The translations under genes and the position numbers were made by a program. From NCBI GenBank assembly GCA_020851635.1, contig JADZCJ010000041.1, positions 1 to 32,455 of the forward strand: a DNA stretch of 32,455 bases, read 5' to 3'. The notes below the pieces were generated by a model. That model made no database searches. It saw only the letters and a list, made by a program, of their open reading frames with translations, and was not told the origin of the DNA. Shown piece by piece: positions 8,663 to 32,373 of the stretch. Position 1 is the stretch's first letter. Every line of letters starts with the position of its first letter. The DNA comes from Anaerolineae bacterium. Its GTDB lineage: Bacteria; Chloroflexota; Anaerolineae; UBA4142; SHND01.

Positions 8663-11350
8663 TTGCTATCAAAACCTGATCCAAATTCGGAAAACAAAGC
8701 GTATAGTTGCAGTTCCGTACGAGGCGTGGCGATTATATCACGAATTGAGGAAACAACACCTTCGAATTGTCCCGTGACAACAGAATCCGGTCCCTTGCGT
8801 ATTGGCATTGACCCCGCGCTCGCCCAATCCAGCGCAGAAATAAAATACACCTTTCGCACCTTGCTCCGCATTGCGGGGTATCCCTACGAATTCAGATGGG
8901 TTGATGCGGCCGAGTTGGGCCCTGCGGTGGATATTTATTATGGACAGCATCACACCTGCGCGGCGAGCATTTTCATTCGCGCGTCAGGCAAGCCATTTAC
9001 AGCGGCAGAGGGGCTTGAGCCGCGGGCGCTTGGAGATTCGGAGAACAGTACGTGCCTGATTCTGGACTCGGCTGCCCCCGGCTCCTACATTCGCTCCCGA
9101 GACCAATTTGAATTCACACACGACCTTATCCTGACTTGCTACTGGCTGCTCACGGGTGCGGGTGAAGCGCGGTATTCCCGTGATCGTTGGGACAACTTTG
9201 ATCTTGGTGACTCGTTCTTGATCAGGAACTCGCTTGCTTCAGCACCGCTTGTTTCTATGTATGGCACGTGGCTGCGAAACCATTTTCAACGTCTCGGCAA
9301 AACGCCATTGGCTCTGCCCTGGAACAGTGGGAGCAAACGCGCGGCATTTGCCCTCACCCATGATGTGGATTATCCCGAAATCATTCGCTCCATCGAATGC
9401 TTGCGTCTGGCACGGACGCGCGGACTTGGGAGTGTCAAGTCCATTCGCGAGGTGCTCAATGGGACCAGCCACTTTTGGAAATTCTCGGATTGGGTGGAAT
9501 TTGCCAAATCATTCAATACCCGTCCCGCCTTTTACTTTATGGCGCGCCGGGGGTCGCTCACGCAGTACGCGCTCGGCACTCCGGACGCATTCTACGACAT
9601 CCGCTCCCCGCGCTTTCGAGAATTATTCCGCGAGCTCCGAGATCAAGGTTGTGAAATCGGATTGCATGCCTCTTACAACGCCTATCGCAGCGCCGAGACT
9701 TATCGCAATGAAAAGCAGGCATTGGAAGAGATCGCAGGCACAGCCATTGTGGGGAATCGCAACCACTATTGGCATCTCGATCCGTTGGTTCCGCACGAGA
9801 CCTTGTACCGGCAGCAACAGGCGGGACTGCTGTACGACAGCTCGCTGGAATTTGAATTTTATCCGGGCTTTCGCCGCGGCATTGCGCATCCCTTTCACGT
9901 TTTTCATCTGGGCGAGCGCCGCGAACTAAAAATTCTGGAGCTGCCGCCTGCGTGGATGGACGACCAGTTTGATCGGCGGCGTTTGCAGAACGGGATCTCG
10001 GATTGTGTGGGATACGCTCGCAATCTCGTCCGGGCGGCACAACAGACGGGGGGCGTGATCATTGTGGATTACCACCAGCGCGGCATGAATCACGATTTTT
10101 ACCCGCGCTATGGTGCGTGGCTGATGGATTTCATGACAAAGCATCTCGATTCAACGGTTGGTTTCCATACCCCCCAGGAGCTGGCTCGGCAATATTTGGC
10201 GTATGAAACGCAGCTCGAGTCTGCATCTCTTGATGCCTGCGAACCGGCAGCTCCGGTCTTGATTCCGTCTCAACCGCAGACGGTGAGCGTTATCAACATA
10301 GACCTGCTGCAGCTGAGTGAGCACGCACAATGGGATGCGTTTGTGGCAGCTCACCCCCAGGGGAATATTTATCATACCTTGGCATGGCAGGTGGTGGAGC
10401 AAGAGGGGTTTGGACATTCGGCGCACTATTTGAGGGCAGTGCGGGACGGCGAATTTGTAGGAGTGCTGCCCCTCTTTCTGGTCAAGGGAATTTTCGGACG
10501 GCGGTTAGTTTCCGTGCCACTGCGCGACCGTGGCGGTCTGCTGGCGGTTGATGCTGATGTTGCCGGCCGACTGCTCGCAAGCGCGAGGGAGCTTGCCAGG
10601 ACGCTGCGCTGTGACTATCTGGAACTACGCTCGCTCGACGAGCTGGATCCGGACGTGGCGCGTCAACAAGAGCTTGAATGTATCAAGTATTGGACCACAA
10701 CCCGCATTGATCTTGCTCCGGGGACGCAAAAATTATGGAAGCGGTTGGACCGCGAATCCGTTCGTTGGGCAATCGGCAAAGCACATCGAAGCGGTGTTCA
10801 GGTCTCGATTGACGATAGCGAGCGCGGCATCGAGCAGTTTTACTCCCTGTTTGTGAAAACACGCAGCGCGATGGGGATTCCTCCCTTTCCAAAAAGATTT
10901 TTTGTCTCGATGTGGACCCATCTGATTCGGCAAGGCAGAGCCAAGCTCTTTATGGAATCGTGCGGCTCAGAACTCATTCACGGCATGGTCTGCCTGCTGT
11001 CCAAGGACACGTTCATTCCGGCTTATGCCGCGCCGCAAAATCAATGGCGGAAAAAGTTCATTAACGAAGTCATGATTTGGCACACGATCGAGTGGGCGAG
11101 CGAGAACGGGTTTCGCTATTATGACTTTGGCGCAGACTCGCCGCGACAGACCGGGTTGCTTCATTTCAAGGAAAAATGGGGCGGTGTGCCGCATCCGGTC
11201 CCGTATTATTTCTATTCGACGCGCGGCAGCACGCTGCCAAACTTTGACAGCAGCACTCCCGGCTACGAGCTGATGCGCAAGATTTGGAAGCGTATGCCGA
11301 CCGCGCTCAGCCAACCTCTCGGTGGTTGGGTTACGCGGCAGCTGAGTTGA
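8663..11350 (+). CDS. Fusion of a CE4 (NodB-like) polysaccharide deacetylase and a FemAB-type GNAT transferase
   Basis: The reading frame is 895 residues long. Residues ~45-220 resemble the N-terminal domain found before many uncharacterised CE4 deacetylases. The NodB part (~225-510) has T-H-D-V-D at 232-236 (catalytic base and metal Asp), G-L-H-A-S at 333-337 (second metal motif, one His plus Ser), H-Y-W-H-L-D at 368-373 and D-Y-H-Q-R at 469-473. Residues ~545-890 form a FemAB-like double GNAT, with Y-H-T-L-A-W near its start and Y-D-F-G-A-D-S-P and F-K-E-K-W-G-G near its end. FemAB proteins transfer amino-acyl or acyl groups to amines. No signal peptide is visible, so it appears cytoplasmic. 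The start is uncertain: TTG at 8663 is the first available, GTG at 8726 or 8774 are alternatives; conservation seems to begin after 8774. The joining of both activities in one chain is notable. Confidence 0.85.
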   Translation: MLSKPDPNSENKAYSCSSVRGVAIISRIEETTPSNCPVTTESGPLRIGIDPALAQSSAEIKYTFRTLLRIAGYPYEFRWVDAAELGPAVDIYYGQHHTCAASIFIRASGKPFTAAEGLEPRALGDSENSTCLILDSAAPGSYIRSRDQFEFTHDLILTCYWLLTGAGEARYSRDRWDNFDLGDSFLIRNSLASAPLVSMYGTWLRNHFQRLGKTPLALPWNSGSKRAAFALTHDVDYPEIIRSIECLRLARTRGLGSVKSIREVLNGTSHFWKFSDWVEFAKSFNTRPAFYFMARRGSLTQYALGTPDAFYDIRSPRFRELFRELRDQGCEIGLHASYNAYRSAETYRNEKQALEEIAGTAIVGNRNHYWHLDPLVPHETLYRQQQAGLLYDSSLEFEFYPGFRRGIAHPFHVFHLGERRELKILELPPAWMDDQFDRRRLQNGISDCVGYARNLVRAAQQTGGVIIVDYHQRGMNHDFYPRYGAWLMDFMTKHLDSTVGFHTPQELARQYLAYETQLESASLDACEPAAPVLIPSQPQTVSVINIDLLQLSEHAQWDAFVAAHPQGNIYHTLAWQVVEQEGFGHSAHYLRAVRDGEFVGVLPLFLVKGIFGRRLVSVPLRDRGGLLAVDADVAGRLLASARELARTLRCDYLELRSLDELDPDVARQQELECIKYWTTTRIDLAPGTQKLWKRLDRESVRWAIGKAHRSGVQVSIDDSERGIEQFYSLFVKTRSAMGIPPFPKRFFVSMWTHLIRQGRAKLFMESCGSELIHGMVCLLSKDTFIPAYAAPQNQWRKKFINEVMIWHTIEWASENGFRYYDFGADSPRQTGLLHFKEKWGGVPHPVPYYFYSTRGSTLPNFDSSTPGYELMRKIWKRMPTALSQPLGGWVTRQLS

Positions 11351-11366
11351 GATTGAATTGACAGCA

Positions 11367-12164
11367 ATGTCGAATGCGCAAGCTTTGCCGATTGCCCGAC
11401 AACCCGCCCAGCAAGCTCTCAGCGTGTTGTTTTTGGGCAATTCAAACAATCCACTCAGCACAAGTTGTGCTTTGGGCCTGGTCGAGTCCGGTCATCGGGT
11501 GGTGCTGGGCGTTCATGATCCTGTATCGAAAAATAAACTCAAACTCTTGCAATCCAGTCTTGCATCGCGCGGGCTTGGATTTGTCCTCCGGCAGACGCAA
11601 TTGTTGCTCCATGCTCGCCTGCGTCGGGGGCTTGTGAACGCCGGAATTCATCTGCGCGGATGTTTTTCGCTCGACGAGCTCTCGGCGGCATACAATCTGC
11701 CGAAAATCCCCTGCAGAAATCCGAATAGTCCCGAATTTGTTCAGCGAGTCAGAGAAATCAATCCGGATTTGATTGCGGTCGCGGCATTCGGGCGCATCTT
11801 GAAAAACGAACTCATCGAAACTCCGAGACTGGGTTGTATCAACGTGCATCCCTCATTGCTGCCGCGTTATCGGGGTCCGAATCCCTATTACTGGGTGCTT
11901 GCCAATCGAGAAACCAAATCCGGCGTGACCGTCCATTTCATTGACCAGGGCATTGACACCGGAGACATCATCCTGCAGACCGATTTTTGCCTGGAGCGCA
12001 CCGAGAGCGAAGCCACACTGCAAGCCAAAGCGGTCAAAACCGCGCCCGCGCTGCTCAACCAAGCAGTTTGGTTGTTGGCACACGGAATCGCGCCGCGGAT
12101 TCCACAGGACGAATCACTGGCTAGCTATTTCGCCTTGCCGCCGCGGGGCGCATCAAAATTCTGA
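11367..12164 (+). CDS. Sugar N-formyltransferase-like protein (methionyl-tRNA formyltransferase fold)
   Basis: This 265-residue protein has the N10-formyltetrahydrofolate-dependent formyltransferase fold. The catalytic triad is visible: N159 and H161 in I-N-V-H-P-S-L-L-P-R-Y-R-G, and D197 in G-I-D-T-G-D, with the same His-to-Asp distance as in E. coli Fmt. It lacks the Fmt C-terminal tRNA-binding domain, and the context is glycan synthesis, so a 3- or 4-amino-sugar nucleotide is the likely substrate, as for WlaRD/QdtF-type enzymes. I chose the ATG at 11367 over TTG at 11358; there is a 16-nt gap after the deacetylase-FemAB gene and no strong ribosome binding site. No aminotransferase dedicated to its substrate is visible, since the DegT enzyme at 23093 fits the wlb pathway. 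It might instead act on an amine freed by the neighbouring deacetylase (inference). Confidence 0.85.
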   Translation: MSNAQALPIARQPAQQALSVLFLGNSNNPLSTSCALGLVESGHRVVLGVHDPVSKNKLKLLQSSLASRGLGFVLRQTQLLLHARLRRGLVNAGIHLRGCFSLDELSAAYNLPKIPCRNPNSPEFVQRVREINPDLIAVAAFGRILKNELIETPRLGCINVHPSLLPRYRGPNPYYWVLANRETKSGVTVHFIDQGIDTGDIILQTDFCLERTESEATLQAKAVKTAPALLNQAVWLLAHGIAPRIPQDESLASYFALPPRGASKF

Positions 12165-12170
12165 TTGAAA

Positions 12171-13928
12171 ATGTCGGATGCGTCCTTGAATCTCTACACG
12201 GCGCGCGCTTTGACGTATTGGAACGAGGTTTCACCAACCGTTCCGCGACTGCTCAGCCAGCTCGACCGTCAACCCTGCTCTCCAAGCGTCGGCAGCTTTG
12301 ATCGCGAGCATTGGGGTTGGAAGTTCCGAGATTTTCCCATCACCATGCTCCAGGCGGGCATCTATCCGCTCTCCTTGCTCTGGCGCTACCCCTTTCCTGA
12401 CAATCCGTATTATCACAACCCGGAGCTGCTGGACTGGATCGGTGCGGCAATCGAATATACCTGTCGCCAACAACATCGCAACGGCGCCTTTGATTCGGTG
12501 GGACCATTTACCCAGGATCACGGGGTCAGTCTGGCGATGGTATTCACCCTCGTCGAGTCTCTTTTGAATCTTGAAGGAGGGCTCGGCGGCGACGTGCGCG
12601 ACCGGGTTGTGGACACTGTCCGCCGCAGCTGCGAATTTGCGGCTGTGAGCCAAGAAGATTATGCGTTTATCAGCAATCATCACGCTCTCTTCGCGCATGC
12701 TTATCTGAGTGCCCATGAACTCACGGGCGATGCAGAATACCGCGAGCGCGCAAACAAGAGTATTGGGCTGATTCTGCAGAATCAATCATCAGAGGGCTGG
12801 TATCCCGAATACGGTGGTCCGGACCCCGGCTATGAATCGCTGGGCATCTTTTATCTTGCTTTGTTTTGGCGGCGGACCCGCTCGCCGGAATTGCTCGAAT
12901 CTCTGCAGCGAGCCGTCGAGTTCTTTTCCTTTTGTGTTCATCCGGATGGTAGCGTCGGTGGGGTCTATGGGAGCCGGTACACCCAGCTCTATTTCCCGGG
13001 CGGCTTTGAGATTCTGGCGAGCGAGCAGCCCTTGGCAGCTTCTGTCGCTCGCTTTATGCGCGAACGACTCGCGCTCAGAAATGTTCTGACCCCTGCCGCG
13101 TCGGACGCGGAAAATCTCGCGCCACTCCTCTATTCATATTTGGAGGCGGCGCTCGCCCATAATGGTCCATTCGCTTCGTTGCCGTTGCTGCCATGTCAAA
13201 ACCTTGAGGGAGTCAGACATCTGCCTGAATCCGGCATCGCCTTTGTTGGCGGCAAACAATACTATGCCGTCACAAACACATCCAAGGGCGGGGTCTGTTG
13301 CATTTTTGACAAAGACACGGCGAAACTAGCGTTCCAGGATTCCGGATATCTGGTCCAGGCGGACAGTCGCCGTTGGACATCGCAATCCACCGGGGTTGGG
13401 CAACTCGAAATTGTCGGCTCTGCCGTTCGGGCCCACTGTGAGACAACTTTTTGCAAAGCAAAACAACATCTCCCCACGTCGGCTAGTTTTGTTGTGCTCC
13501 GGTTGCTGAACTTGACCATCTTTCGGAGTGTGCATCTGGGAGCGTGGATCCGGCGAGTCCTCATCGCGCGGCTGATAACCGAGAGGCGCCCCGGCCCGCT
13601 TCGCCTCGAGCGCGAAATCGCTTTTGGCGAGACAGAGATCTTGATTTCGGACCGCCTGACTGCAGAAACGGCTGTGCGCGTCGAATTCGTCATGCGCCCC
13701 CGTTCTTTTACTCCCATACACATGGGGTCCGCCAGGTATTTTCACAGCGCCGAATTGGAGAAAAATCCTGACATTCGGACGGATGGAATGTCCGAGGCGT
13801 TGAATCTTGAACGCCAAGCCGATTGCATATATTCAATTCAATTGGTCCAAGCGCCGGATGCGCGAGCGATTGACTCGCCGGTGACTCGGCAATCTTCCGC
13901 GCCGTGCGAGAGAGGGGTACACGCATGA
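12171..13928 (+). CDS. Unexported (alpha/alpha)6-toroid plus beta-sandwich protein, heparinase/alginate-lyase-like
   Basis: The 585-residue protein begins with an alpha-helical part (to ~330) rich in paired aromatic motifs: F-D-R-E-H-W-G-W-K at about 42-50, W-Y-P-E-Y-G-G-P-D-P-G-Y-E-S around 207-220, and S-N-H-H-A-L-F-A-H-A at 165-174. These suggest an (alpha/alpha)6 barrel like polysaccharide lyases. Residues ~350-560 look like beta-sandwich, with G-P-L-R-L-E-R-E-I-A-F-G-E-T-E typical of heparinase II/III C-terminal domains. There is no signal peptide or membrane segment, so it would stay in the cytoplasm, which is odd for a lyase. ATG at 12171 follows the formyltransferase by 6 nt and the stop overlaps the next start (ATGA). 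It may process a lipid-linked intermediate or a nucleotide sugar. I do not know its function. Confidence 0.75.
   Translation: MSDASLNLYTARALTYWNEVSPTVPRLLSQLDRQPCSPSVGSFDREHWGWKFRDFPITMLQAGIYPLSLLWRYPFPDNPYYHNPELLDWIGAAIEYTCRQQHRNGAFDSVGPFTQDHGVSLAMVFTLVESLLNLEGGLGGDVRDRVVDTVRRSCEFAAVSQEDYAFISNHHALFAHAYLSAHELTGDAEYRERANKSIGLILQNQSSEGWYPEYGGPDPGYESLGIFYLALFWRRTRSPELLESLQRAVEFFSFCVHPDGSVGGVYGSRYTQLYFPGGFEILASEQPLAASVARFMRERLALRNVLTPAASDAENLAPLLYSYLEAALAHNGPFASLPLLPCQNLEGVRHLPESGIAFVGGKQYYAVTNTSKGGVCCIFDKDTAKLAFQDSGYLVQADSRRWTSQSTGVGQLEIVGSAVRAHCETTFCKAKQHLPTSASFVVLRLLNLTIFRSVHLGAWIRRVLIARLITERRPGPLRLEREIAFGETEILISDRLTAETAVRVEFVMRPRSFTPIHMGSARYFHSAELEKNPDIRTDGMSEALNLERQADCIYSIQLVQAPDARAIDSPVTRQSSAPCERGVHA
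13911..13917 (+). promoter_or_regulatory. Ribosome binding site that decides the start of the GT2 at 13925
   Basis: AGAGGGG ends 7 nt before the ATG at 13925. This supports that start over the in-frame ATG at 13904 inside the preceding gene. Confidence 0.65.
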
Positions 13929-14764
13929 TCTATCTACTATTGCCCGCCTACAACGAACAAGACGCGCTAGAGCCCTTGATGTCCAAGATCGAACGCGTAA
14001 TGCACGAGATGCATGTCCCATACCGCGTTATCGTTGTGAATGACGGCAGCACGGATGCGACCGAACGCATTTTGCAGGAACTCGGGACGCGCTATCCGCT
14101 TGACGTCATCAAGCACAAATACAATCGCGGATTAGGGGAAACGGCGCGTGATGGCTTTGAATTCATTGCCGAGGTTGCTTCCCCGGGAGATATCGTGGTG
14201 CGCATGGACTGTGATGACACGCATGACCCTGCGTACATCCCGGCGATGGCAGCCAAGCTCAAGGAAGGTTATGAGGTCGTAACGACTTCACGCTATGCCG
14301 AGGGCGGCGGGCAGATCGGAGTAGATTTGTACCGCCGCACGATCAGCCGCATTGCGAACCTGCTGCTCAAGGCATGCTTTCCCATTCCCGGAGTCTGGGA
14401 ATATACCTGCGGCTTTCGCGCATACCGCGCCGCAGTCCTGCAGGATGCGCTGGCGATTTTTGGCAATCGTTTCATTGATCTCAAAGGGCTGGGTTTTACG
14501 GGCACGGTCGAAAAGATGGTCAAATTCAAACTGATGGGCGCACGCGTTGCCGAAATTCCATTTGTCCTACGCTACGACCAAAAGTTGAGCACGAGCAAGG
14601 TGGTCACCAGCATTACGACGCTGGGTTATTTTGTGCTGATCGCCAAGTATGTTTATTTCTGGGGAGATCTGGGCAAAGAGTGGAAGCTCAAGATCGAGGA
14701 ACGTAAACGACGGCTGTACGGCAGTGATGGACGCTTGAGTGAACAGGCACAGAGGGTAAGCTAA
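13925..14764 (+). CDS. Glycosyltransferase family 2, DPM1-like
   Basis: This 279-residue GT2 starts with L-L-P-A-Y-N-E-Q-D at about 5-13, has V-V-N-D-G-S-T-D at 37-44, N-R-G-L-G at 67-71, and M-D-C-D-D-T-H-D-P around 94-102, where the DxD metal site lies. F-R-A-Y-R-A near residue 165 and the length fit polyprenyl-phosphate hexose synthases. A hydrophobic stretch near 233-245 could help membrane association but is not a full anchor. It is coupled to the toroid gene by ATGA and to the amidotransferase by a one-base overlap (TAATG). A GT-C transferase and an LPG_synthase_TM protein follow two and three genes on, which together would suit a route that makes a polyprenyl-phosphate sugar, flips it and uses it outside (inference). 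Confidence 0.88.
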   Translation: MIYLLLPAYNEQDALEPLMSKIERVMHEMHVPYRVIVVNDGSTDATERILQELGTRYPLDVIKHKYNRGLGETARDGFEFIAEVASPGDIVVRMDCDDTHDPAYIPAMAAKLKEGYEVVTTSRYAEGGGQIGVDLYRRTISRIANLLLKACFPIPGVWEYTCGFRAYRAAVLQDALAIFGNRFIDLKGLGFTGTVEKMVKFKLMGARVAEIPFVLRYDQKLSTSKVVTSITTLGYFVLIAKYVYFWGDLGKEWKLKIEERKRRLYGSDGRLSEQAQRVS

Positions 14765-16728
14765 TGTGTGGTATCGCAGGGATTCTGGAACGGAATCCAT
14801 CCGCTGCGGCGGACCGCCGACTTGTGCGAAAAATGACACGTGCCCTACAGCATCGCGGACCCGATGGGGAAGGTTTTTATTTTGATGGTCCGGTTGGCTT
14901 GGGGCATCGCCGTCTCGCGATTATTGATCTTGCGACGGGAGAGCAGCCCATTTCGAACGAGGACGGGTCCATTTGGCTCATCTTTAACGGCGAGATCTAT
15001 AACTATCTCGAACTGCGCCGCCAACTGGCTGGACATCATACCTTTCGCACGCAGAGCGATACCGAGGTGATTGTCCATCTCTACGAGGACCTGGGCGCGC
15101 GCTGCGTCGAACAGCTGAACGGCATGTTTAGTTTTGCGCTGTGGGATGCGCGGCTGGGATGTCTGTTTGCGGCGCGCGATCACATGGGGATCAAACCCCT
15201 GTACTGGCATCTTGACCGCGACCGTTTCAGCTTTGCCAGCGAACCCAAGGCGTTGCTCGCCGCGGGTCTCGTCGAGCCGCAAGTAAATCCACAAGCGCTG
15301 GAGGAATATCTGGCATTCCAGTTCTGCCTCGGCGACAGAACTCTGTTCAAGAATGTTTGGCAGCTCGAACCCGGTCACTATCTTGTATTTCGACCGTTTG
15401 ACGATGACGCGCCGCGCATCGTGCGGTATTGGGACACCGACTATCAGTTGGATCACCACCACACCGAAGATTATTTTGTCGAGCAGCTCCTCTCGCTCTT
15501 GCAGGACTCGGCGCGACTTCAACTGCGGAGTGATGTGCCTGTTGGCTCGCATCTCTCGGGTGGGATTGACAGTTCCACAGTTGCCTGCCTCGCTGCCCCT
15601 GTCTACGGCGGTTCGTTCCACACCTTTACCGGCGCATTTCGGGAAGGCGCACAGTACGACGAGACGCCTTATGCGGGTGTCATTGCAAATCATATTCACA
15701 GCACACATCATGAAATCTGGCTCGATGCGACAGAGTGTCTGGATGCCTTGCCCGGGCTCATTTACATGATGGATGAGCCGGCGGCTGGTCCGGGTTTGCT
15801 GCCCCAGTATTTTGTCTCCAGGTATGCGCGCGAGCATGTCAAGGTGGTCCTGGGTGGTCAGGGGGGTGACGAGATCTTTGGTGGTTATGCGCGGTATCTG
15901 ATTGCTTATCTCGAACAGACCTTGAAAGCGGCAATTTACGGCACACAAGACGAGGGGAAATATGTCGTCACCTGGGAAAGTATCATGCCTAACCTGAGGT
16001 TGCTGGCGAATTATCGTCCGCTCATGCAGAGTTTTTTGCGCGACGGCCTGTTTCGCGAGATGGACGAAAGGTATTTTCGTTTGGTCAGTCGCATCGAGGA
16101 TGTCGAAACTGTCATTACAGGGGATGTTTGGGACAGTGGGACCCGGTCACGGCTGTTTGCAGAATTTCAGACAATTTTCAACCGCCCTGACACCAAGAGT
16201 TATTTTAACAAGATGACAAATTTTGACATCAAGACGTTACTGCCCGCGCTGCTGCATGTCGAAGACCGCGCCAGCATGAGTGTTTCACTTGAATCGCGCG
16301 TCCCGCTGCTCGATCATCGGATTGTTGACCTTGTCACGCACATGCCGCCAACGTTTCGCTTCAAGGGCGGCGACACGAAAAGGACCTTGCGCGACGCGGT
16401 AAAGCATCTTTTGCCCGAAGCTATCTTTAATCGGCGCGACAAGATGGGTTTTCCCGTGCCGCTGGCAGAATGGCTGCGCGGACCGCGTCGCGCCTTTGTT
16501 TACGACACCTTGCTCTCGGCTCGTGCCCGCGAACGCGGCATCTATCGCATGGATGGGATCGAGCAGTTGTTGCTCACGGAACAGCAGTTTGGCAGACAAT
16601 TATGGGGCTTGCTTTGTCTCGAGTTGTGGTTCCATGCGTTTTTTGACGACCACACAAGTTCAAGCGCAGACGACCTCACCGAGCTGCCTCTGGCAGTTTC
16701 ACAGTTCGAACCCGCGATCGCGGCATAG
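14764..16728 (+). CDS. asnB: Asparagine synthase-type glutamine amidotransferase
   Basis: This 654-residue protein combines an N-terminal class II glutaminase (M-C-G-I-A-G, Cys2 becoming the N-terminal nucleophile; R-G-P-D-G-E-G near 36; N-G-E-I-Y-N-Y near 76) with a C-terminal ATP-pyrophosphatase synthetase domain (S-G-G-I-D-S-S at 265-271, G-G-Q-G-G-D-E-I-F-G-G-Y near 365). AsnB makes asparagine, but copies inside glycan loci, such as WbpS-type proteins, are thought to amidate uronic acids, and the wlb genes here make a uronic acid. The length and context also resemble amidotransferases of exosortase-linked EPS loci, though no exosortase is seen. The ATG shares one base with the previous stop. 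Family firm; true substrate inferred. Confidence 0.92.
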   Translation: MCGIAGILERNPSAAADRRLVRKMTRALQHRGPDGEGFYFDGPVGLGHRRLAIIDLATGEQPISNEDGSIWLIFNGEIYNYLELRRQLAGHHTFRTQSDTEVIVHLYEDLGARCVEQLNGMFSFALWDARLGCLFAARDHMGIKPLYWHLDRDRFSFASEPKALLAAGLVEPQVNPQALEEYLAFQFCLGDRTLFKNVWQLEPGHYLVFRPFDDDAPRIVRYWDTDYQLDHHHTEDYFVEQLLSLLQDSARLQLRSDVPVGSHLSGGIDSSTVACLAAPVYGGSFHTFTGAFREGAQYDETPYAGVIANHIHSTHHEIWLDATECLDALPGLIYMMDEPAAGPGLLPQYFVSRYAREHVKVVLGGQGGDEIFGGYARYLIAYLEQTLKAAIYGTQDEGKYVVTWESIMPNLRLLANYRPLMQSFLRDGLFREMDERYFRLVSRIEDVETVITGDVWDSGTRSRLFAEFQTIFNRPDTKSYFNKMTNFDIKTLLPALLHVEDRASMSVSLESRVPLLDHRIVDLVTHMPPTFRFKGGDTKRTLRDAVKHLLPEAIFNRRDKMGFPVPLAEWLRGPRRAFVYDTLLSARARERGIYRMDGIEQLLLTEQQFGRQLWGLLCLELWFHAFFDDHTSSSADDLTELPLAVSQFEPAIAA

Positions 16729-18459: not shown

Positions 18460-19463
18460 CAAAGCGTCTGTCACCCGCGCTGTTGAACATAATAAAAATC
18501 GTCATCGCGATTGGGCTCTTGTTATATCTCGCCATTGGTGGCGCGATTGATTGGAGCAGTCTGGCGCGCCTCGGCTCGCGCTGGGATCTTGCGTTCGCCG
18601 CGCTGCTGGCTCTGATGGCAGCTGTTACAGCGAATGCCATACGCTTGTGCATTTTGTTCAGACCGCCGGCTCTGTTTCTGACTTTTTGGTCTTCGTTACG
18701 TCTGACCATGGTGGGGACCTTTTTTAATGCTTGTCTACCGGGTTCGACCGGGGGCGACCTTGTGCGCATGTACTATGCCTCAGAGGGAAATAACGGTCGG
18801 CGCGCCGAGACGGTTACGGTGATCTTGCTGGATCGAGTGGTTGGTTTGTTGGCGCTTTTGTTGGTTCCTTTGATTGTTCTCCTCTTGCTGCCGGGACTCG
18901 CCGGTTCTTTTCAGTTTGTGCAAGAGATCGCATTGGGCGCGGCAGGCATTTCGGTCCTCGTCATTACCGGATTGGTTTTGGGCGCTAAACTGTTCCCTCG
19001 GATTGACCGAATTTCATTCCCTGCATTTGAGCGACTGCGCCTAAAAGAATTGTTGAGCCGTTTTGATGCCTTGTTCAGGACCTATGGCGACCGACCGGGT
19101 ATGTTTCTGACAGCGATTGCCGTTGCGCTGGTCTCGCACGGCTTTACCATTTTTGCCATGCTCATGATCACCCTGACGATTGTGCCAGAGCCATTGAATC
19201 CCTCTATCTTTGTGCTCATGCCGGTTGGTTTTCTGGCAAACGCCGTGCCGATCACTCCCGGTGGGTTGGGAGTTGGCGAGGTCGCGTTCACAAACCTCTT
19301 TGCGCTTGCAGGAGCGAGAGGAGGAGCAGAAACTCTCTTGAGTTGGCGCGTGCTGACCATTGTTGTTGGTCTTTTTGGACTAGTCTTTTATTTGAACGGG
19401 AGAAAACAGTTCAAGATGCAATTGACACCCCCTGCTTCCACGCAGCAAGCCGAGGTGCTCTGA
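18456..19463 (+). CDS. LPG_synthase_TM family integral membrane protein (flippase-like)
   Basis: This 335-residue protein has about eight hydrophobic segments and the conserved features of the LPG_synthase_TM/UPF0104 family (PF03706). These include F-F-N-A-C-L-P-G-S-T-G-G-D-L-V-R near residue 86, L-L-D-R-V-V-G-L near 122, and P-I-T-P-G-G-L-G-V-G-E near 267. The catalytic MprF lysyl-transferase domain is absent, so it is not a lysyl-phosphatidylglycerol synthase. In glycan loci such proteins are proposed to be lipid-linked sugar flippases and sometimes occur joined to DPM1-type GT2 domains. The start overlaps the GT-C stop (ATGA) and its stop overlaps wlbA (TGATG), so it belongs to the same transcript. 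Function inferred from context. Confidence 0.85.
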   Translation: MTKRLSPALLNIIKIVIAIGLLLYLAIGGAIDWSSLARLGSRWDLAFAALLALMAAVTANAIRLCILFRPPALFLTFWSSLRLTMVGTFFNACLPGSTGGDLVRMYYASEGNNGRRAETVTVILLDRVVGLLALLLVPLIVLLLLPGLAGSFQFVQEIALGAAGISVLVITGLVLGAKLFPRIDRISFPAFERLRLKELLSRFDALFRTYGDRPGMFLTAIAVALVSHGFTIFAMLMITLTIVPEPLNPSIFVLMPVGFLANAVPITPGGLGVGEVAFTNLFALAGARGGAETLLSWRVLTIVVGLFGLVFYLNGRKQFKMQLTPPASTQQAEVL

Positions 19464-20503
19464 TGAATTATTTCCAGGATCCAATCGAGACCTGTCAAAA
19501 TATTGCCGTCATCGGGTCGGGTTACTGGGGCAAGAATCTGGTGCGGAATCTTGCGCAGATAGATGCCCTTGCCTGCATTTGTGACGCCAACCCTGTGGCG
19601 CTCAAGAAACAGGCAGCGCTCTACCCGAATGTCTGCCTTGAAACTGAATTCGAGCGAGTGCTCGCGGACCCGACTATACGTGGGGTGGTCATTGCCACGC
19701 CCGCCGCGATGCATTATGCGCAGGTCAAGCAGGCGATTCTGAGCGGCAAAGATGTATTTGTCGAAAAGCCGCTTTCCCTGCATTTGAGCGAAGGGGCAGA
19801 ACTGGTCGAATTGGCATCCGCGATGGGGTCCATCCTCATGGTCGGTCACATCCTGGAATATCACCCTGCGTTGGTCCTGCTCAAAGACATTATCAGTCAC
19901 GGTGAGCTTGGAAGAATCCGTTATCTCTACTCGAACCGGCTCAACCTCGGCCAGGTGCGCAAAGAGGAAAATATCTTGTGGAGCTTTGCGCCGCACGATA
20001 TTTCGGTTATCTGCAGCTTGATCGGCGGCGATCCTGCTGTCGTCAGCGCCATGGGCGGCAGCTATCTCCAGCCCGACATTGTAGACGTAACCGTGACCAA
20101 TCTGGCGTTTGGTGATGGCGCCCGGGCGCATATTTTCGTCAGCTGGCTCCATCCATACAAGGAACAAAAGCTCGTGGTCATTGGCGAGAACAAGATGGCG
20201 GTGTTCGACGACACGGCACGCGACGGCAAACTCAAAATTTATGACAAAGGTATCGAATGGCGCGGGGGCGTGCCGGTCCCGAGACAGACCGCCGAGACGA
20301 CCCTCTTTTTTGACGATACCGAACCATTGCTCCTCGAGTGCCGTCACTTTGTTGAATGTTTGCAGACTAGATCGCGTCCGCTTACCGATGGCGAAAATGG
20401 GCTGCGGGTTTTGCGCGTTTTGGAAGCGGCGCAAATTTCTCTGGAAAGTGGGGGAATGCCTGTGCCTATGGCGGAGGTGGAACTACGGCTGCCAACATAC
20501 TAG
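19463..20503 (+). CDS. wlbA: UDP-GlcNAc-uronate 3-dehydrogenase (Gfo/Idh/MocA, WlbA/WbpB type)
   Basis: This 346-residue oxidoreductase has the NAD-binding G-S-G-Y-W-G-K-N at 18-25, E-K-P-L at 101-104, and [11 protein letters not shown] at 171-181 with H178 and D179 in the active site. This last segment is characteristic of WlbA enzymes that oxidise C3 of UDP-GlcNAcA. It is followed directly by the acetyltransferase and later by the aminotransferase and 2-epimerase of the same pathway, which makes UDP-ManNAc3NAcA in Bordetella and Pseudomonas. I chose ATG at 19463 because it overlaps the previous stop (TGATG); the open frame upstream lies inside the flippase-like gene. The UDP-GlcNAc 6-dehydrogenase that feeds the pathway is not in the window. 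Confidence 0.9.
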
Positions 20504-20511
20504 ACTATTAT

Positions 20512-21114
20512 GTGCATCCCTCCAGTGTCATTGATGAGGGCGCCGAGATTGGAAGCGGGACCAGGATCTGGCATTTTTGCCATGTCATGACCGGCGCGCG
20601 CGTTGGCAGGCACTGCAACATCGGGCAAAACGTTTTTATCGCCGCGGGTGTTTGTATCGGCGATAACGTCAAAATTCAAAACAATGTCTCGCTCTATACC
20701 GGCGTTATCGTACAGGACGATGCATTCATCGGACCGTCCGTTGTTTTCACAAACGTAATCAATCCTCGCAGTCATGTCGAGCGCAAGTCCGAGTACAAAC
20801 AAACGCTTGTCCAACGCGGCGCTTCGATTGGCGCGAATGCGACGATTGTGTGCGGGGTAACTCTGGGCGTGTATTCCTTTGTCGGTGCGGGCGCAGTGGT
20901 GACGCGCAGTGTATTTGATTATGGTCTCGTGTATGGAAATCCGGCACGCCAGCAAGGTTGGATCTGCAGCTGCGGTGTAAAACTAGAGTCCAAGCCCCGA
21001 CAGGCGGATAAAATCTATAAATGCCACAACTGCGGCATAGTCTATCGGTCCTTTTTGATGCAAGACAACCGAACCGTAGGAATCATATCCTTGATTCCGG
21101 ATCAAACGCAATAA
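20512..21114 (+). CDS. wlbB: UDP-GlcNAc(3NH2)A N-acetyltransferase (left-handed beta-helix, WlbB/WbpD type)
   Basis: The 200-residue protein is built of hexapeptide repeats (for example [28 protein letters not shown]) forming a left-handed beta-helix that uses acetyl-CoA to acetylate the 3-amino group. The insert F-T-N-V-I-N-P-R-S at 79-87 and [10 protein letters not shown] at 141-150 are family marks. The C-terminus has C152-x-C154 and C171-x2-C174, a probable zinc knuckle seen in some WlbB proteins. The only in-frame start is GTG at 20512, 8 nt after wlbA; related proteins usually have a few residues before H-P-S, so the start is slightly short or atypical. GGAGGT at 20473-20478 is too far to be a normal ribosome binding site. 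Confidence 0.9.
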
Positions 21115-21143: not shown

Positions 21144-23096
21144 ATGGCTACGTTTCTGCACTCGGCACTACCAGACTCTTTCAAGACAGGCAAGAATCGA
21201 AAATCGCAATTCATTCTCTTGAGTGTGATCCTGCTTCTCTCGTTTGTGCACATTAGAGCGGTGTGGGGTTACCCGACCCTCTTTTGGGGTGACCATGGGC
21301 TGTGGTTGAACCAGGTTGAACGCTTTGCCCGGGGGGAGGGCTTGTACACGGACTTTGTCTATCATTTCCCTCCGGTTTCGATCTGGATTATGGGAACGCT
21401 CGGCAAGCTATTCGGGACCAATCTCGATGCGATGTGGACCTGGACGGCGCTTGTCTATGTCGTGATCATGCTCTTGTACTGGGTCTATACAAGCCGCTTG
21501 CTCGAGCCCGGACTGAGACTCGGTGCAGTTACAAGTGGGATGGTTCTCTCCGCTGCCTACGCAAATATCCTCTCCGCTCCACTACCGCTGGGCATGTACA
21601 CACCATCTGCTCCGCTCGGATTTTTGATTCTGCTTGGAACAGTCCTGCTGGTGCTTGACCTCATGCGCCATGCGCGTCCATTGAACGCAGCGGCGATTGG
21701 GTTCTTGTGCGCCCTCCTTATCCTGACAAAACAAGATTTTTGGATGCCCGCCCTCTATCTGGTGCTCGTCTCTTCTGTGATAGCTGGCAGAGATGGTAGA
21801 GCGAATATCGTAGCAATCGCACTATTGTTGGGAACGTTTGGGGTTACCATCGTTGCCGCAGGTGCAGTGGTGGTTGATTCCGCGGGATGGGATACGCTCG
21901 TTGGACTCGTCGGTGGTTTGCATGATGTGAACTATAGCATAGGACGGGGGTTGCCATCCTGGCAGCGAATTATTGCCGAACTTGTCACTCTGTCTCTGGT
22001 TGGCTTGGGGCTGGGCATTTGCATAGTGTCGAGTCGAGGATTCGCATTTCACCGCGTACGGCGTTGGATGGTTGTCTTGGCGAGCACAGCTTGCCTGACG
22101 GCTGCTATCCACATCGTCATGACCTACATTGTCGCGTTGAATCCCGTGCTTGCTGCCGGCGCAGAGTATACGACGCCGACACAGGGGTTTCAATCCGGCG
22201 CCGCTGTCATAGATGTAGGGTTGCTCAGCAGGTCAGTCCGATTTCTCGCGTCCGAGATCCAGATTCGCATCTTTCCTCTCCTTTTGCCGGTCGCCGTCTT
22301 TGTTCTTTTGTGGTCGCGCCGAAACCATCTTCCAAAGGGAAAGGCACATCAAGTCGTGTTGATCCTCTTGGGGCTTGTTATCACAGCGCGTCTGCGAAGG
22401 GGTTTCGAATACGTCGAGTGGTATCATTTTCTGCTCGAAATCCCGATCTATGTCCTGGCTGTGCAACTGATATTCTTTGGGCGACCCCGGGAGATAAAGC
22501 GTGGGCTGAATATTGGTCTCGCTTGCCTGACAGCCATTGGCTTGTTTTCCTATTGGGATATGGCGCCGGGTTTTGGCACAAGAACGGGTGAGCTCGTCAC
22601 GGTCGAAACGCCCAAAGGAACAATCCATGCATTTGAGAATGAGGCGAAAGATTATAGAGAGATCAGTGCGGCACTCGCACAGCTTGATCCGAGTGGAACT
22701 CGACCGTTGCTTGCCTCCGGTTATTCCGGACCCTATAACTACTACTTTGATCGCAAGAATCCTGTGGCAATTACGCTGGGATTCACCTTTGCCAGCATGC
22801 CGCCCAATAGAATCATAGAGGATTTTAAAACTGCAAGCCCCGCTCCAATTCTTTTGCGCAACAGTCTTCTCGATTCAATGGTCGTGCCGGACTATCAGCT
22901 GGATCCGATGCGATGGGGGTTTGACAAGATTGCAAATCCCGTCTTTGAGCTCGAGCATCACTATTTTGACCGTCTCATCTCTGGGTGTACTAGAGGAACC
23001 AACATTCCAAGTTGGTCGTATGGCATTTTTAGTCTGTACGATTGCGCCAGCCCTGATTGGAGTCAAGACCGGGGTCAAGACTGGGGGACCAATTGA
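21144..23096 (+). CDS. Polytopic GT-C-like membrane glycosyltransferase
   Basis: The 650-residue protein has a first membrane segment near 22-40, then F-W-G-D-H-G-L-W-L-N near 46-55 (an Asp in the first outer loop, as in GT-C enzymes), and roughly ten more hydrophobic segments up to ~475. A soluble C-terminal domain of about 160 residues, rich in Pro and aromatic residues, probably faces outside. The ATG at 21144 is 29 nt after wlbB, without a clear ribosome binding site; the frame is open upstream inside wlbB but that part does not look like protein. It interrupts the wlb genes, so it may be the transferase for the sugar they make, or a polymerase-like enzyme. It is not clearly related to the GT-C at 16750. 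Family level call only. Confidence 0.75.
   Translation: MATFLHSALPDSFKTGKNRKSQFILLSVILLLSFVHIRAVWGYPTLFWGDHGLWLNQVERFARGEGLYTDFVYHFPPVSIWIMGTLGKLFGTNLDAMWTWTALVYVVIMLLYWVYTSRLLEPGLRLGAVTSGMVLSAAYANILSAPLPLGMYTPSAPLGFLILLGTVLLVLDLMRHARPLNAAAIGFLCALLILTKQDFWMPALYLVLVSSVIAGRDGRANIVAIALLLGTFGVTIVAAGAVVVDSAGWDTLVGLVGGLHDVNYSIGRGLPSWQRIIAELVTLSLVGLGLGICIVSSRGFAFHRVRRWMVVLASTACLTAAIHIVMTYIVALNPVLAAGAEYTTPTQGFQSGAAVIDVGLLSRSVRFLASEIQIRIFPLLLPVAVFVLLWSRRNHLPKGKAHQVVLILLGLVITARLRRGFEYVEWYHFLLEIPIYVLAVQLIFFGRPREIKRGLNIGLACLTAIGLFSYWDMAPGFGTRTGELVTVETPKGTIHAFENEAKDYREISAALAQLDPSGTRPLLASGYSGPYNYYFDRKNPVAITLGFTFASMPPNRIIEDFKTASPAPILLRNSLLDSMVVPDYQLDPMRWGFDKIANPVFELEHHYFDRLISGCTRGTNIPSWSYGIFSLYDCASPDWSQDRGQDWGTN
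23083..23088 (+). promoter_or_regulatory. Ribosome binding site supporting a TTG start for wlbC
   Basis: GGGGGA lies 4 nt before the TTG at 23093. That TTG overlaps the previous stop as TTGA, and the protein then begins M-K-I-P-L-F-D, the usual beginning of DegT-family enzymes. Confidence 0.65.
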
Positions 23097-24229
23097 AGAT
23101 TCCATTGTTCGATCCGGCAGCACAGTATCAAGCACTGGAGCACGAAATGAATCAGGCCGTCCATAATGTGTTGCGTGTGGGCCAATTCATTCTTGGTCCG
23201 GAGGTCGCGGCTTTCGAACACGAGGTTGCCGATTACCTGAATGTAAAACATGCAATAGGCGTCGCATCCGGCACGGACGCTCTGGTTATAGCGTTGCGCG
23301 CCCTGGGCATTGGCGCCGGCGATGAGGTGATTGTTCCAGCTTTTACTTTTTTTGCGACGGCAGAGGCAGTCCTTTTGGTTGGCGCTGTGCCTGTGTTTGT
23401 TGATGTTGATCCTTTGACTTTATGTCTGGACGTCAAGTTGATTCGCGACCGAGTCACCGCGCTGACCAAAGCGGTAATTCCGGTGCATCTCTATGGGCAT
23501 CCGGCAGACATGATTGCGCTGGCGGAACTCGCCGCCGATCTGGGTCTCAAGCTGATTGAAGACTGCGCGCAATCCTTTGGGGCAGAGTTGTGCGCGCGCA
23601 AGACAGGCACCTTTGGTGACATCGGATGCTTTAGTTTTTTTCCAACAAAGAACTTGGGAGCGTGCGGCGACGCCGGGATGCTGGTCACCAACGACGACGA
23701 GCTCGCCGAAAAGATCAAGATGCTTCGAACGCACGGCTGGCGCGAAAAATACAAGCCCGAACTCGTCGGCTACAACAGTCGTCTCGATGAGCTTCAGGCG
23801 GCAATCCTCCGCATCAAGCTGCGGCATCTGGACCGATGGAATGAGCGGCGCCGCGAACTGGCGAATCTCTACGCCGAGTTCCTCGCGGACTTGCCGGTCA
23901 TTCTGCCGTATCAATCTCCGGTTGGCAAACACGTCTATCACTTGTTTGTGATTCGAGTCCGCGAACGGGAAACGGTGCGGCAACATCTTGCAAAACAAGG
24001 CATCGCAACGGGGGTTTATTATCCGAGTCCGCTCCACCTGCTCGAACCCTGTGGGCACCTGGGTTACGCGTGCGGTGATTTCCCCGTCGCTGAAATGGCG
24101 AGCCGTAAAGCCCTGGCGCTGCCGTTGTATCCTGAGCTCATCCCCGCTGACATACAACAAGTTTCGGCTGCCCTCGGACAAGTGACCCAAACTCTCAACC
24201 AAACGACATGCGAATCCTCTCTATCGTAG
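23093..24229 (+). CDS. wlbC: UDP-3-keto-GlcNAcA aminotransferase (DegT/DnrJ/EryC1, WlbC/WbpE type)
   Basis: This 378-residue PLP enzyme transfers an amino group to C3 of the keto-sugar made by WlbA. K186 in S-F-F-P-T-K-N-L-G is the PLP Schiff-base lysine; D157 and Q160 in E-D-C-A-Q hold the cofactor; A-S-G-T-D-A-L at 58-64 binds its phosphate. The segment G-C-F-S-F-F-P-T-K-N-L-G-A-C-G-D-A-G matches WbpE closely. The Lys rules out RfbH, which has His there. The start is the TTG at 23093, which overlaps the preceding gene's stop; TTG at 23057 would add 12 unsupported residues. The gene overlaps wlbD by 22 nt. The pathway call rests on the four linked wlb genes. Confidence 0.9.
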   Translation: MKIPLFDPAAQYQALEHEMNQAVHNVLRVGQFILGPEVAAFEHEVADYLNVKHAIGVASGTDALVIALRALGIGAGDEVIVPAFTFFATAEAVLLVGAVPVFVDVDPLTLCLDVKLIRDRVTALTKAVIPVHLYGHPADMIALAELAADLGLKLIEDCAQSFGAELCARKTGTFGDIGCFSFFPTKNLGACGDAGMLVTNDDELAEKIKMLRTHGWREKYKPELVGYNSRLDELQAAILRIKLRHLDRWNERRRELANLYAEFLADLPVILPYQSPVGKHVYHLFVIRVRERETVRQHLAKQGIATGVYYPSPLHLLEPCGHLGYACGDFPVAEMASRKALALPLYPELIPADIQQVSAALGQVTQTLNQTTCESSLS

Positions 24230-25335
24230 GCGCACGCCCCCAATTTATCAAAGCCGCGCCCGTCTCATGGGCGCTTGCCGAAATGGGGCATTCGGAAACC
24301 ATCTTGCACACCGGGCAGCATTATGATGACCGGATGTCTCGAGTCTTTTTTCAAGAGTTGGAGCTGCCCATCCCGGCTTTCAACCTCAAGGTCGGGTCCG
24401 GTTCCCACGGCTGGCAGACCGCGGCGATGCTGAGCGGGATAGAAGAGGTCTTGAGCAAAGAGAAACCGGACTGGGTCCTGGTCTATGGGGATACCAACTC
24501 GACGCTGGCGGGCGCGCTTGCCGCCAGCAAATTGCGATTGCCCCTCGCGCATGTCGAAGCCGGACTGAGATCGTTTAATCGCGAAATGCCCGAAGAGCAC
24601 AATCGCGTCCTGACCGATCATTGCTCTGATCTTTTGTTTTGCCCAACCCATACTGCCGTGCGGAATCTCGCGCAAGAAGGCATCACGCGCGGCGTGGAAC
24701 GCGTGGGTGACACAATGTACGACGCAGTGCTCCGGTATATTCCGCTCGCCCGCGAGCGCTCCGGGATCATGGAAAAGCTGAATCTGGAGCCCCAAAAATA
24801 TCTGCTGGCAACGATCCACCGCCCCTACAACACGGACTCGCCCGAGATATTAAAGCAGCTCCTGATGACCCTTTCGCGTCTTGATGAAACTGTGGTTTTT
24901 CCCGTGCATCCCCGCACCCGGCGAATGCTCATCGAGCTGGCAAGGACTCATCTCTCTCTTTTGGGCGCTCCCAATCTGTGCCTCATTGACCCGCTCGGTT
25001 ATCTCGATATGCTTGCATTGGAATCAAACGCGCGCGTCATTCTCACGGATTCCGGGGGCATTCAAAAAGAAGCGTATATGGTTGGTGTCCCCTGTGTCAC
25101 GCTGCGACCGGAGACCGAATGGGTAGAGACGGTTGAAGCGGGCTGGAACACCATCGCAGGCACCGATCCCAAGCGGATTCTTGCCGCCGCGCGCAATAAC
25201 CCGCGACACCTGCCGCGCCGTCAAATCTTTGGATCGGGTGACGCCGCGTATCGCATTGTGGCACATTTGACCGCGCGAGCCGGTCCGACTTGCCCCGTCA
25301 TTTCAAATCGCGTGCCGGAGCTGGAATTCGCATGA
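24208..25335 (+). CDS. wlbD: Non-hydrolysing UDP-N-acetylglucosamine 2-epimerase family (WlbD/WbpI type)
   Basis: This 375-residue GT-B-fold epimerase inverts C2 of a UDP-N-acetyl sugar. G-A-R-P-Q-F-I-K-A-A-P is at 8-18, H-T-G-Q-H-Y-D-D near 36-43, V-Y-G-D-T-N-S-T near 92-99, H-V-E-A-G-L-R-S near 114-121, P-E-E-H-N-R near 128-133, and T-D-S-G-G-I-Q-K-E near 280-288. The set would also fit WecB, which makes UDP-ManNAc, but the position after wlbA, wlbB and wlbC points to UDP-GlcNAc3NAcA as substrate, giving UDP-ManNAc3NAcA. The start lies 22 nt inside wlbC and the stop overlaps the next gene as ATGA. Confidence 0.92.
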   Translation: MRILSIVGARPQFIKAAPVSWALAEMGHSETILHTGQHYDDRMSRVFFQELELPIPAFNLKVGSGSHGWQTAAMLSGIEEVLSKEKPDWVLVYGDTNSTLAGALAASKLRLPLAHVEAGLRSFNREMPEEHNRVLTDHCSDLLFCPTHTAVRNLAQEGITRGVERVGDTMYDAVLRYIPLARERSGIMEKLNLEPQKYLLATIHRPYNTDSPEILKQLLMTLSRLDETVVFPVHPRTRRMLIELARTHLSLLGAPNLCLIDPLGYLDMLALESNARVILTDSGGIQKEAYMVGVPCVTLRPETEWVETVEAGWNTIAGTDPKRILAAARNNPRHLPRRQIFGSGDAAYRIVAHLTARAGPTCPVISNRVPELEFA

Positions 25336-30924: not shown

Positions 30925-32373
30925 ATGCGCCTCGCCAAAAACTATTTGTATCTTTCTGCGGCAGAACTGGCTGCCAAAGTGATCACTTTTGCCGCAATCG
31001 CCTATCTCGCGCGGGTCGCGGGTCCGGTCGCATATGGCTATTTCGAGTTTGCGGCGGCGGCTGTTTTTTGTGCGGGCTTGATTGTTGACCAGGGACTCGG
31101 ACCGTATGGCGCGCGTGAAATTGCCAAGGGTTCGATGCCGACCGCCGACCTTGTTCGGCAAATCGTCAGTTTGCGAGTCATCCTTGCTGCCATCGCTGCC
31201 GGCGCGCTGGCGCTCTTTGCCCTCGCGTTCGAGCAGCCGCCTCTCGTCACACAGCTGCTCTTGATCTATGCGCTGGACTTGATGCTCATGCCCTTGTTGC
31301 TGCAGTGGGTGTTTCAAGGACATGACCGCATGGGAACCGTCGCCGTCCTGCAGCTCATCCGTCAGGCGTTCTTTGCCATCGTTATCTTTGCCTGGGTTCG
31401 AGAGCCGAAGCAAATCTGGATTGTTGCCGTTGCCGAAGGCGTCGGCATCGCGGGCGCTGTAATTTACGGTTTGATTGCATATCATCGGCGCTATGGAAGT
31501 TGGCTTCAAGCCCGGTTGCATGTCTCATGGAAGGTTCTGCGTGAGAGCGCCCCAATCGGCGCCAGCCAAATTTTTTGGGTCGTCCGCATGTATGGCGCGA
31601 TCCTTATTCTCGGTCTCGTTGCGACCCCTCCGGAAGTGGGCTACTTTGGCGCGGCGATGCGTATTTTCGTTGCCCTGCATGCCTTTGTCTATCTCTATTT
31701 TTTCAATCAACTTGCATCGCTCGCTCGGGCGTGGCACGCCCGGGACGCGAGTCTCGACACCCTTATTGCCCAATCGCTGCGGCGTGTCGCGGGAGTCTGT
31801 CTTTTTAGCGTGCCCGTCTGGATCTTGACCTCCCCGCTTGTCATTCGCATTGCCTACGGTCCCGAATTTGCCCCGGCGGCGGTGCCTCTCGCGTGGTTGG
31901 CAGTGGTCTTTGGGTTTGCCTGGTTGGACGGGCATTATCGCTTTTCGTTGATCGCTGCGGGCTATCAGCACATCGAAATGTACAGCCAGTTGTTCGGCTC
32001 TTTGGTGGCTGCAATTTTGATCCCGGTCTTGTATGTGCTGGGCGGCTTGGGTGGTGTGGGGATTGCGCTTGTGATCGGCGAACTTGTCGTGTGGCTCATT
32101 GCGTGGTGGTACTCGCGACGGGAATTGCATCTGCGGGGACATGCGGCGCTGCTGGGTCGCATGGGCATTGCAGGACTGTTTGCCGCATTTCTGATCTGGG
32201 TCACCGGAGAGATGCCCCTCCTCGCGCGTATCTTTTTGGTAGAGCTATCGCTTGTGCTCGTTATGCTGGTGATTGATTCGCAGCTGCGCACGTTCGTGCT
32301 GACTGTCGGGTCAAGAGAGCATACGAGGTTAAGGGCGCGTTTGGGTAGATTGCTGCGGTTACGCTTGACATAG
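30925..32373 (+). CDS. Wzx-type polysaccharide flippase (oligosaccharide flippase, MOP superfamily)
   Basis: This 482-residue protein has about 12-14 hydrophobic segments and the N-terminal pattern of Wzx/RfbX proteins (N-Y-L-Y-L-S-A-A-E-L-A-A-K then A-Y-L-A-R-V-A-G-P-V-A-Y-G). G-L-G-P-Y-G-A-R-E-I-A near residues 57-67 is also typical. Such proteins move undecaprenyl-linked oligosaccharides from the inner to the outer membrane face. It starts 7 nt after the oxidoreductase stop, with no clear ribosome binding site, and its stop overlaps the ribosome binding site of the next gene. It is the main evidence for Wzx/Wzy-style export, though no Wzy is recognisable in the window. Confidence 0.88.
   Translation: MRLAKNYLYLSAAELAAKVITFAAIAYLARVAGPVAYGYFEFAAAAVFCAGLIVDQGLGPYGAREIAKGSMPTADLVRQIVSLRVILAAIAAGALALFALAFEQPPLVTQLLLIYALDLMLMPLLLQWVFQGHDRMGTVAVLQLIRQAFFAIVIFAWVREPKQIWIVAVAEGVGIAGAVIYGLIAYHRRYGSWLQARLHVSWKVLRESAPIGASQIFWVVRMYGAILILGLVATPPEVGYFGAAMRIFVALHAFVYLYFFNQLASLARAWHARDASLDTLIAQSLRRVAGVCLFSVPVWILTSPLVIRIAYGPEFAPAAVPLAWLAVVFGFAWLDGHYRFSLIAAGYQHIEMYSQLFGSLVAAILIPVLYVLGGLGGVGIALVIGELVVWLIAWWYSRRELHLRGHAALLGRMGIAGLFAAFLIWVTGEMPLLARIFLVELSLVLVMLVIDSQLRTFVLTVGSREHTRLRARLGRLLRLRLT

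Follow-up and report, generated by a model that had tools for sequence, protein, structure and literature searches.

The 32,455-nucleotide stretch of DNA analysed here (the window) encodes what an earlier note described as a deacetylase and a FemAB-type transferase in one chain, which raises the question of whether this is a genuine two-domain enzyme and, if so, what it does and to which sugar.

Domain organization of the fusion

8663..11350, + strand: fused open reading frame of 895 aa, a VimE-like deacetylase half followed by a FemAB-like transferase half
Residues 146-480: VimE-like N half (NCBIfam VimE, NF053580, E 3e-22; 78.6 bits, below the curated 440-bit cut-off)
9119..9376, + strand: DUF7033-like domain, residues 153-238 (Pfam PF23019, E 1e-4; 23.0 bits, slightly under the 27-bit Pfam cut-off)
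10211..10291, + strand: linker, residues ~517-543, variable in sequence and length in the alignment with the homologue P0002
10325..11344, + strand: FemAB/FemX-like double-GNAT half, residues 555-894 (TIGR03019, E 1e-66; 225 bits over the full model length, below the curated 260-bit cut-off)

The reading frame runs without interruption through all 895 codons (8663-11350) and both halves have Pfam or NCBIfam matches, which bears out the claim that the two domains share one chain. Its start is ambiguous (TTG at 8663 or GTG at 8726); P0002 begins at the residue corresponding to position 24 of the window protein. Third-position composition has no break at the junction of the two halves. The double GNAT, which had been placed at ~545-890, was found as residues 555-894, and within it residues 697-825 match the GNAT model Acetyltransf_6 (PF13480, E 1e-15). 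No hydrophobic N-terminal signal was seen, the best 19-residue hydropathy average over the first 60 windows being 0.4; the earlier note had likewise seen no export signal. Structure prediction (two sequences) for the whole chain and the deacetylase core gave pLDDT values of 35 and 42 and no usable model.

Recurrence and rarity

If the two halves had been brought together by a sequencing or assembly error, as the earlier note considered, the same arrangement should not recur independently. It does: P0002 is a full-length homologue with 54% identity over residues 24-895, encoded on contig JAJRXX010000007.1 of a planctomycete MAG (locus L051), whose sample we infer to be deep-sea from the isolate name Dive96. 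Because this genome encodes the whole fusion in collinear surroundings, we reject chance as well as an assembly join of two genes. These are the only two genomes in which the fusion was found by 1,383 genome searches, which were centred on Planctomycetota and covered some genomes more than once, and it is absent from five genomes of the same genus. A scan of 84,980 species representatives with six exact 8-residue patterns, a search of low sensitivity for distant fusions, returned L051 as its sole match. Viral contigs and phages yielded no relatives when scanned, and plasmids only single halves. A 654-aa frame (L080) was considered as a further fusion and rejected, as the translation of its N-terminal extension suggests a spurious frame. 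Such a fusion was likewise not found in the open-access literature searched, and the single-chain version appears to be new and very rare.

The deacetylase half is of the VimE type

9356..9370, + strand: THDVD, CE4 motif 1, residues 232-236 (H233, D234, D236), invariant in 26 of 26 family members
9659..9676, + strand: GLHASY, CE4 motif 2 region, residues 333-338 (H335 and Y338, each in 25 of 26)
9752..9772, + strand: GNRNHYW, motif 3 region, residues 364-370 (R366 and H368, 26 of 26)
9833..9847, + strand: YDSSL, motif 4 region, residues 391-395 (D392, 26 of 26)
10064..10078, + strand: VDYHQ, motif 5 region, residues 468-472 (H471, 26 of 26)

Both deacetylase motifs reported earlier, THDVD and HxS, are present, the latter within GLHASY. 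The ordinary NodB model of Pfam (PF01522) does not match the N half, and we therefore regard it as a divergent CE4 branch. Eleven positions are invariant in the 26 deacetylase relatives (H233, D234, D236, R366, H368, D392, R404, P428, M432, D433 and H471), and in a profile comparison with a polysaccharide deacetylase of known structure (PDB 3rxz) THDVD aligns with TFDVD and YDSSL with YDSTL. Of the classical HxxxH motif the second His is lacking; H368, which is invariant, may stand in for it.

The N half is much closer to the syntenic Parabacteroides VimE (BLAST E 5e-20; hhalign 99.1%, E 8e-19) than to the XrtA deacetylase (E 5e-4; hhalign 86.9%), and an XrtA-type identity was rejected since this similarity is remote only. 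It carries the set that marks VimE, namely DUF7033, which is also present in VimE-type proteins and VimE orthologues, together with a CE4 core with the invariant H, D, D, R, H, D and H. In the tree it groups with stand-alone VimE-like proteins (SH-aLRT 99) and not in the clade of VimEs encoded beside VimA.

The transferase half is FemX-like and of the TIGR03019 type

11165..11170, + strand: F835-K836, equivalent of FemX F304-K305
Residues 821-823: DFG in the transferase half

Against solved structures the profile of the C half matches lipid II:glycine glycyltransferase (6snr, E 5e-21), and also FemX and an aminoacyl-tRNA-dependent peptide synthase. Both features of FemABX membership, the double GNAT and the equivalent of FemX Lys305 (for its role see PMC12945691), are present. 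Of the 45 transferases compared, 42 retain K836 and the other three are VimA-type proteins. As catalytic residues are thus kept in both halves, the concern that one of them might lack its active site throughout the family finds no support.

The C half is 31% identical to a TIGR03019 FemAB (E 9e-55) and only remotely similar to VimA (BLAST E 6.6; hhalign 87.7%, E 3e-6). The tree places it inside the TIGR03019-type group and not in the clade of Bacteroidota VimA, which is separate. Both trees were built by a quick method and have several long branches, so that the fine placement of either half is uncertain. The three VimA-type proteins mentioned above (L082 7805-8758, L096 5241-6167 and L097 10244-11185) have Phe at the Lys305 position, in contrast to the remaining FemAB relatives that were compared.

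The fusion lies in a Wbp-type gene cluster

11358..12164, + strand: formyltransferase-like gene, 7 bp after the fusion (Formyl_trans_N, E 2e-32)
12165..13928, + strand: 587-aa protein with no Pfam or NCBIfam match, 56% identical to the protein at the same position in L051
13904..14764, + strand: GT2 glycosyltransferase, 66% identical to its L051 counterpart
14764..16728, + strand: AsnB/WbpS-like amidotransferase, TIGR03108 type, 69% identical to its L051 counterpart
19343..20503, + strand: WbpB-like Gfo/Idh/MocA dehydrogenase (NF040723, UDP-GlcNAc 3-dehydrogenase, E 8e-40, below cut-off; 67% in L091), actual start probably ~19484
20512..21114, + strand: WbpD-like hexapeptide N-acetyltransferase (NeuD/PglB family, E 2e-24; 63% in L091)
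23057..24229, + strand: WbpE-like DegT aminotransferase (55% in L091)
24208..25335, + strand: WecB/WbpI-like UDP-N-acetylglucosamine 2-epimerase (TIGR00236, E 7e-94, above cut-off; 63% in L091)
30925..32373, + strand: Wzx-like polysaccharide flippase (Polysacc_synt, E 2e-23)

Of the Wbp/Vim set, homologues of WbpB, D, E, I and S are thus in the operon, the transferase is not VimA proper, and a WbpA-type dehydrogenase is encoded outside the operon on another contig of the same genome. The cluster is collinear with the planctomycete contig, of which L091 is a further part that also encodes PMT-like proteins and an LPG-synthase-TM flippase-like protein (41%) before the Gfo/Idh dehydrogenase. The slot directly after the fusion differs, as in L051 it holds an unrelated GNAT acetyltransferase (P0003, 12646-13341) and not a formyltransferase-like gene; the two different N-acylating enzymes perhaps provide a cap for the new amino acid or another amine. 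At the contig edge the window contains the end of an ISAZ013-type transposase (2-430).

Split pairs and single halves

Deacetylase and FemAB genes were expected to occur elsewhere as separate neighbours, and they do. On pDVUL01 an XrtA deacetylase gene is followed by FemAB with an 8 bp overlap, and in Parabacteroides the order is bcp-recA-vimA-vimE, the VimA and VimE genes overlapping by 10 bp. Two planctomycete loci, L096 (3884-6167) and L097 (8838-11185), whose class is given as the window's own, are true split pairs in the order vimA then vimE, and the L097 pair is accompanied by WbpA, WbpB and WbpE homologues. The reversed gene order and both trees led us to reject descent of the fusion from a vimA-vimE pair. 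The fusion therefore links the unexplained TIGR03019 FemAB family to a VimE-type deacetylase.

Each half also occurs singly in Wbp-type clusters: the deacetylase without FemAB in L109 and likewise in loci of family f24, and FemAB in L050 and L110, where no VimE-like gene was seen. In the latter two a conserved protein of 258-276 aa with no Pfam match lies directly before FemAB (L050 7796-8626, L110 8853-9629).

The fusion is not encoded in an exosortase locus in either genome. In the genome of the window a single exosortase is encoded, on a different contig, and a search for PEP-CTERM at E 1e-3 gave no match, so that a sugar that anchors proteins is less likely in this organism. L051 comes from a genome with three exosortases, all on contigs other than that of the fusion, as well as 16 PEP-CTERM matches and a second, ordinary FemAB adjoining an exosortase.

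Comparison with known systems

The Wbp enzymes of two gum-disease bacteria, Porphyromonas gingivalis and Tannerella forsythia, produce 2,3-di-N-acetylglucuronic acid, from which VimE, whose activity is called putative, is proposed to take off the C-2 acetyl, after which VimA presumably transfers serine or glycine; WbpS forms the uronamide in P. gingivalis, and placing T. forsythia vimA in P. gingivalis led to a different amino acid being added (PMC7468200). In a later paper the Vim enzymes are said to "switch out the acetyl group", with an amino acid taking its place (PMC11969387). The earlier note had proposed an undescribed swap of acetyl for an acyl or aminoacyl group on an amino sugar. Kinship and gene context make such a swap by the fusion plausible, but the chemistry is not new, as it has been published with VimE and VimA as separate enzymes.

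As in the VimE/VimA system, a deacetylase of the VimE family occurs with a FemAB-like transferase and alongside homologues of WbpB, D, E, I and S, and an identical exchange of acetyl for aminoacyl on a diamino-uronic sugar is predicted for the fusion. Unlike VimE/VimA, it is a single chain in the order VimE-FemAB, where the genes run vimA-vimE; its transferase groups with TIGR03019 and has the FemX lysine where the three aligned VimA-type proteins have Phe, and no link to type IX secretion is known for it. With the FemAB of the XrtA/PEP-CTERM system (TIGR03019) it shares the type of its C half and the deacetylase-then-FemAB order, whereas its deacetylase is of the VimE/DUF7033 type and its surroundings are a Wbp-type cluster, not an exosortase locus. 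It has the double GNAT of the aminoacyl-tRNA-dependent FemX/FemABX transferases and their FK motif with the Lys305 equivalent, but its predicted acceptor is an amino sugar and theirs the peptidoglycan stem peptide. Finally, HfsH and HfsK of the Caulobacter holdfast are also a deacetylase and a FemAB-like N-acyltransferase, which may act sequentially on an exopolysaccharide; in contrast to the fusion they are separate proteins and their substrate is the holdfast polysaccharide, not a Wbp-pathway sugar.

Proposed function

We propose, with a probability of roughly 60%, that the fusion is a one-chain version of the last two steps of the Wbp/Vim pathway. In this proposal the operon's Wbp-type enzymes and the WbpA-type dehydrogenase encoded elsewhere would make the nucleotide sugar of a 2,3-diacetamido-2,3-dideoxy-uronic acid. 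The N half would then remove one N-acetyl group, by analogy that at C-2, through a metal-dependent CE4 mechanism, and the C half would attach an amino acid to the freed amine, with aminoacyl-tRNA as the most likely donor, as in FemX. The AsnB/WbpS-like enzyme would amidate the carboxylate, and the finished sugar would enter a polysaccharide repeat unit to be exported by the Wzx-type flippase. The absence of WbpA from the operon makes it possible that the substrate is a neutral 2,3-diacetamido sugar and not the uronate. Counting against the proposal are the scores of both halves, which lie below the NCBIfam cut-offs, and their positions outside the clades of the Vim pairs.

As a GNAT the C half could use acyl-CoA or an acyl carrier and transfer a fatty acyl or some other acyl group to the amine; its Pfam match is indeed to a GNAT model (PF13480), and VimA was originally annotated as an acetyl-CoA transferase. 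However, its profile matches FemX and the aminoacyl-tRNA-dependent peptide synthases, the FemX Lys305 position is kept, and the vimA exchange experiment altered which amino acid was added. This makes an acyl-CoA donor improbable and a tRNA-derived amino acid the more likely addition, so that of the "acyl or aminoacyl" alternatives offered earlier the second is favoured.

FemA/B-type enzymes can use lipid-linked acceptors, and in XrtA loci the deacetylase gene lies directly before FemAB, which would suit a lipid-linked or polymeric exopolysaccharide whose chain is deacetylated and then decorated by the same protein, much as Caulobacter HfsK has been proposed to acylate the amines exposed by HfsH. 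We consider this about as improbable as the acyl-CoA donor, as the N half is of the VimE/DUF7033 type and only remotely XrtA-like while the Wbp-type genes indicate a nucleotide sugar, which, going by the VimE annotation, is the more likely predicted substrate than the lipid-linked one suggested in the earlier note. Slightly less probable still is that each half acts on a different sugar of one repeat unit and the fusion merely fixes their stoichiometry: both halves occur singly in Wbp-type clusters, as such a division of labour would allow, but the published pathway has the two half-reactions in sequence on one amine. An artefactual join or an inactive fusion is highly improbable given the independent MAG with the same fusion (54%), the intact catalytic residues and the smooth third-position composition.

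In a more far-reaching reading the bifunctional enzyme would swap N-acetyl for aminoacyl on one nucleotide sugar without release of the free amine and, as a fusion of a VimE-type deacetylase with a TIGR03019-type FemAB, would reveal the task of the widespread exosortase-associated FemABs as aminoacylation of an amine freed by the neighbouring deacetylase. We advance this combined reading only tentatively and think it somewhat less likely to hold than to fail. Veith et al. speculated that the FemABs of PEP-CTERM/exosortase loci make an amino-acid-bearing sugar (PMC7468200), and their idea gains genomic evidence from a natural fusion of such a FemAB to a VimE-type deacetylase that lies among homologues of WbpB, D, E, I and S. 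Together with the single halves in Wbp-type clusters, it supports the view that TIGR03019-type FemABs act on amines of Wbp-pathway sugars. The two-step exchange could, moreover, be assayed on the fusion as one soluble protein, in which no membrane segment is obvious.

Stand-alone relatives of the deacetylase half

Relatives of the N half that stand alone were found at L031-L042 and L093 (34-39% identity), many of them from one planctomycete family. In the loci that were read (L031-L036, L038, L041 and L093) no FemAB was seen; in most of them genes for a WecB-type epimerase and hexapeptide transferases lie in the vicinity, perhaps for a different acyl exchange.
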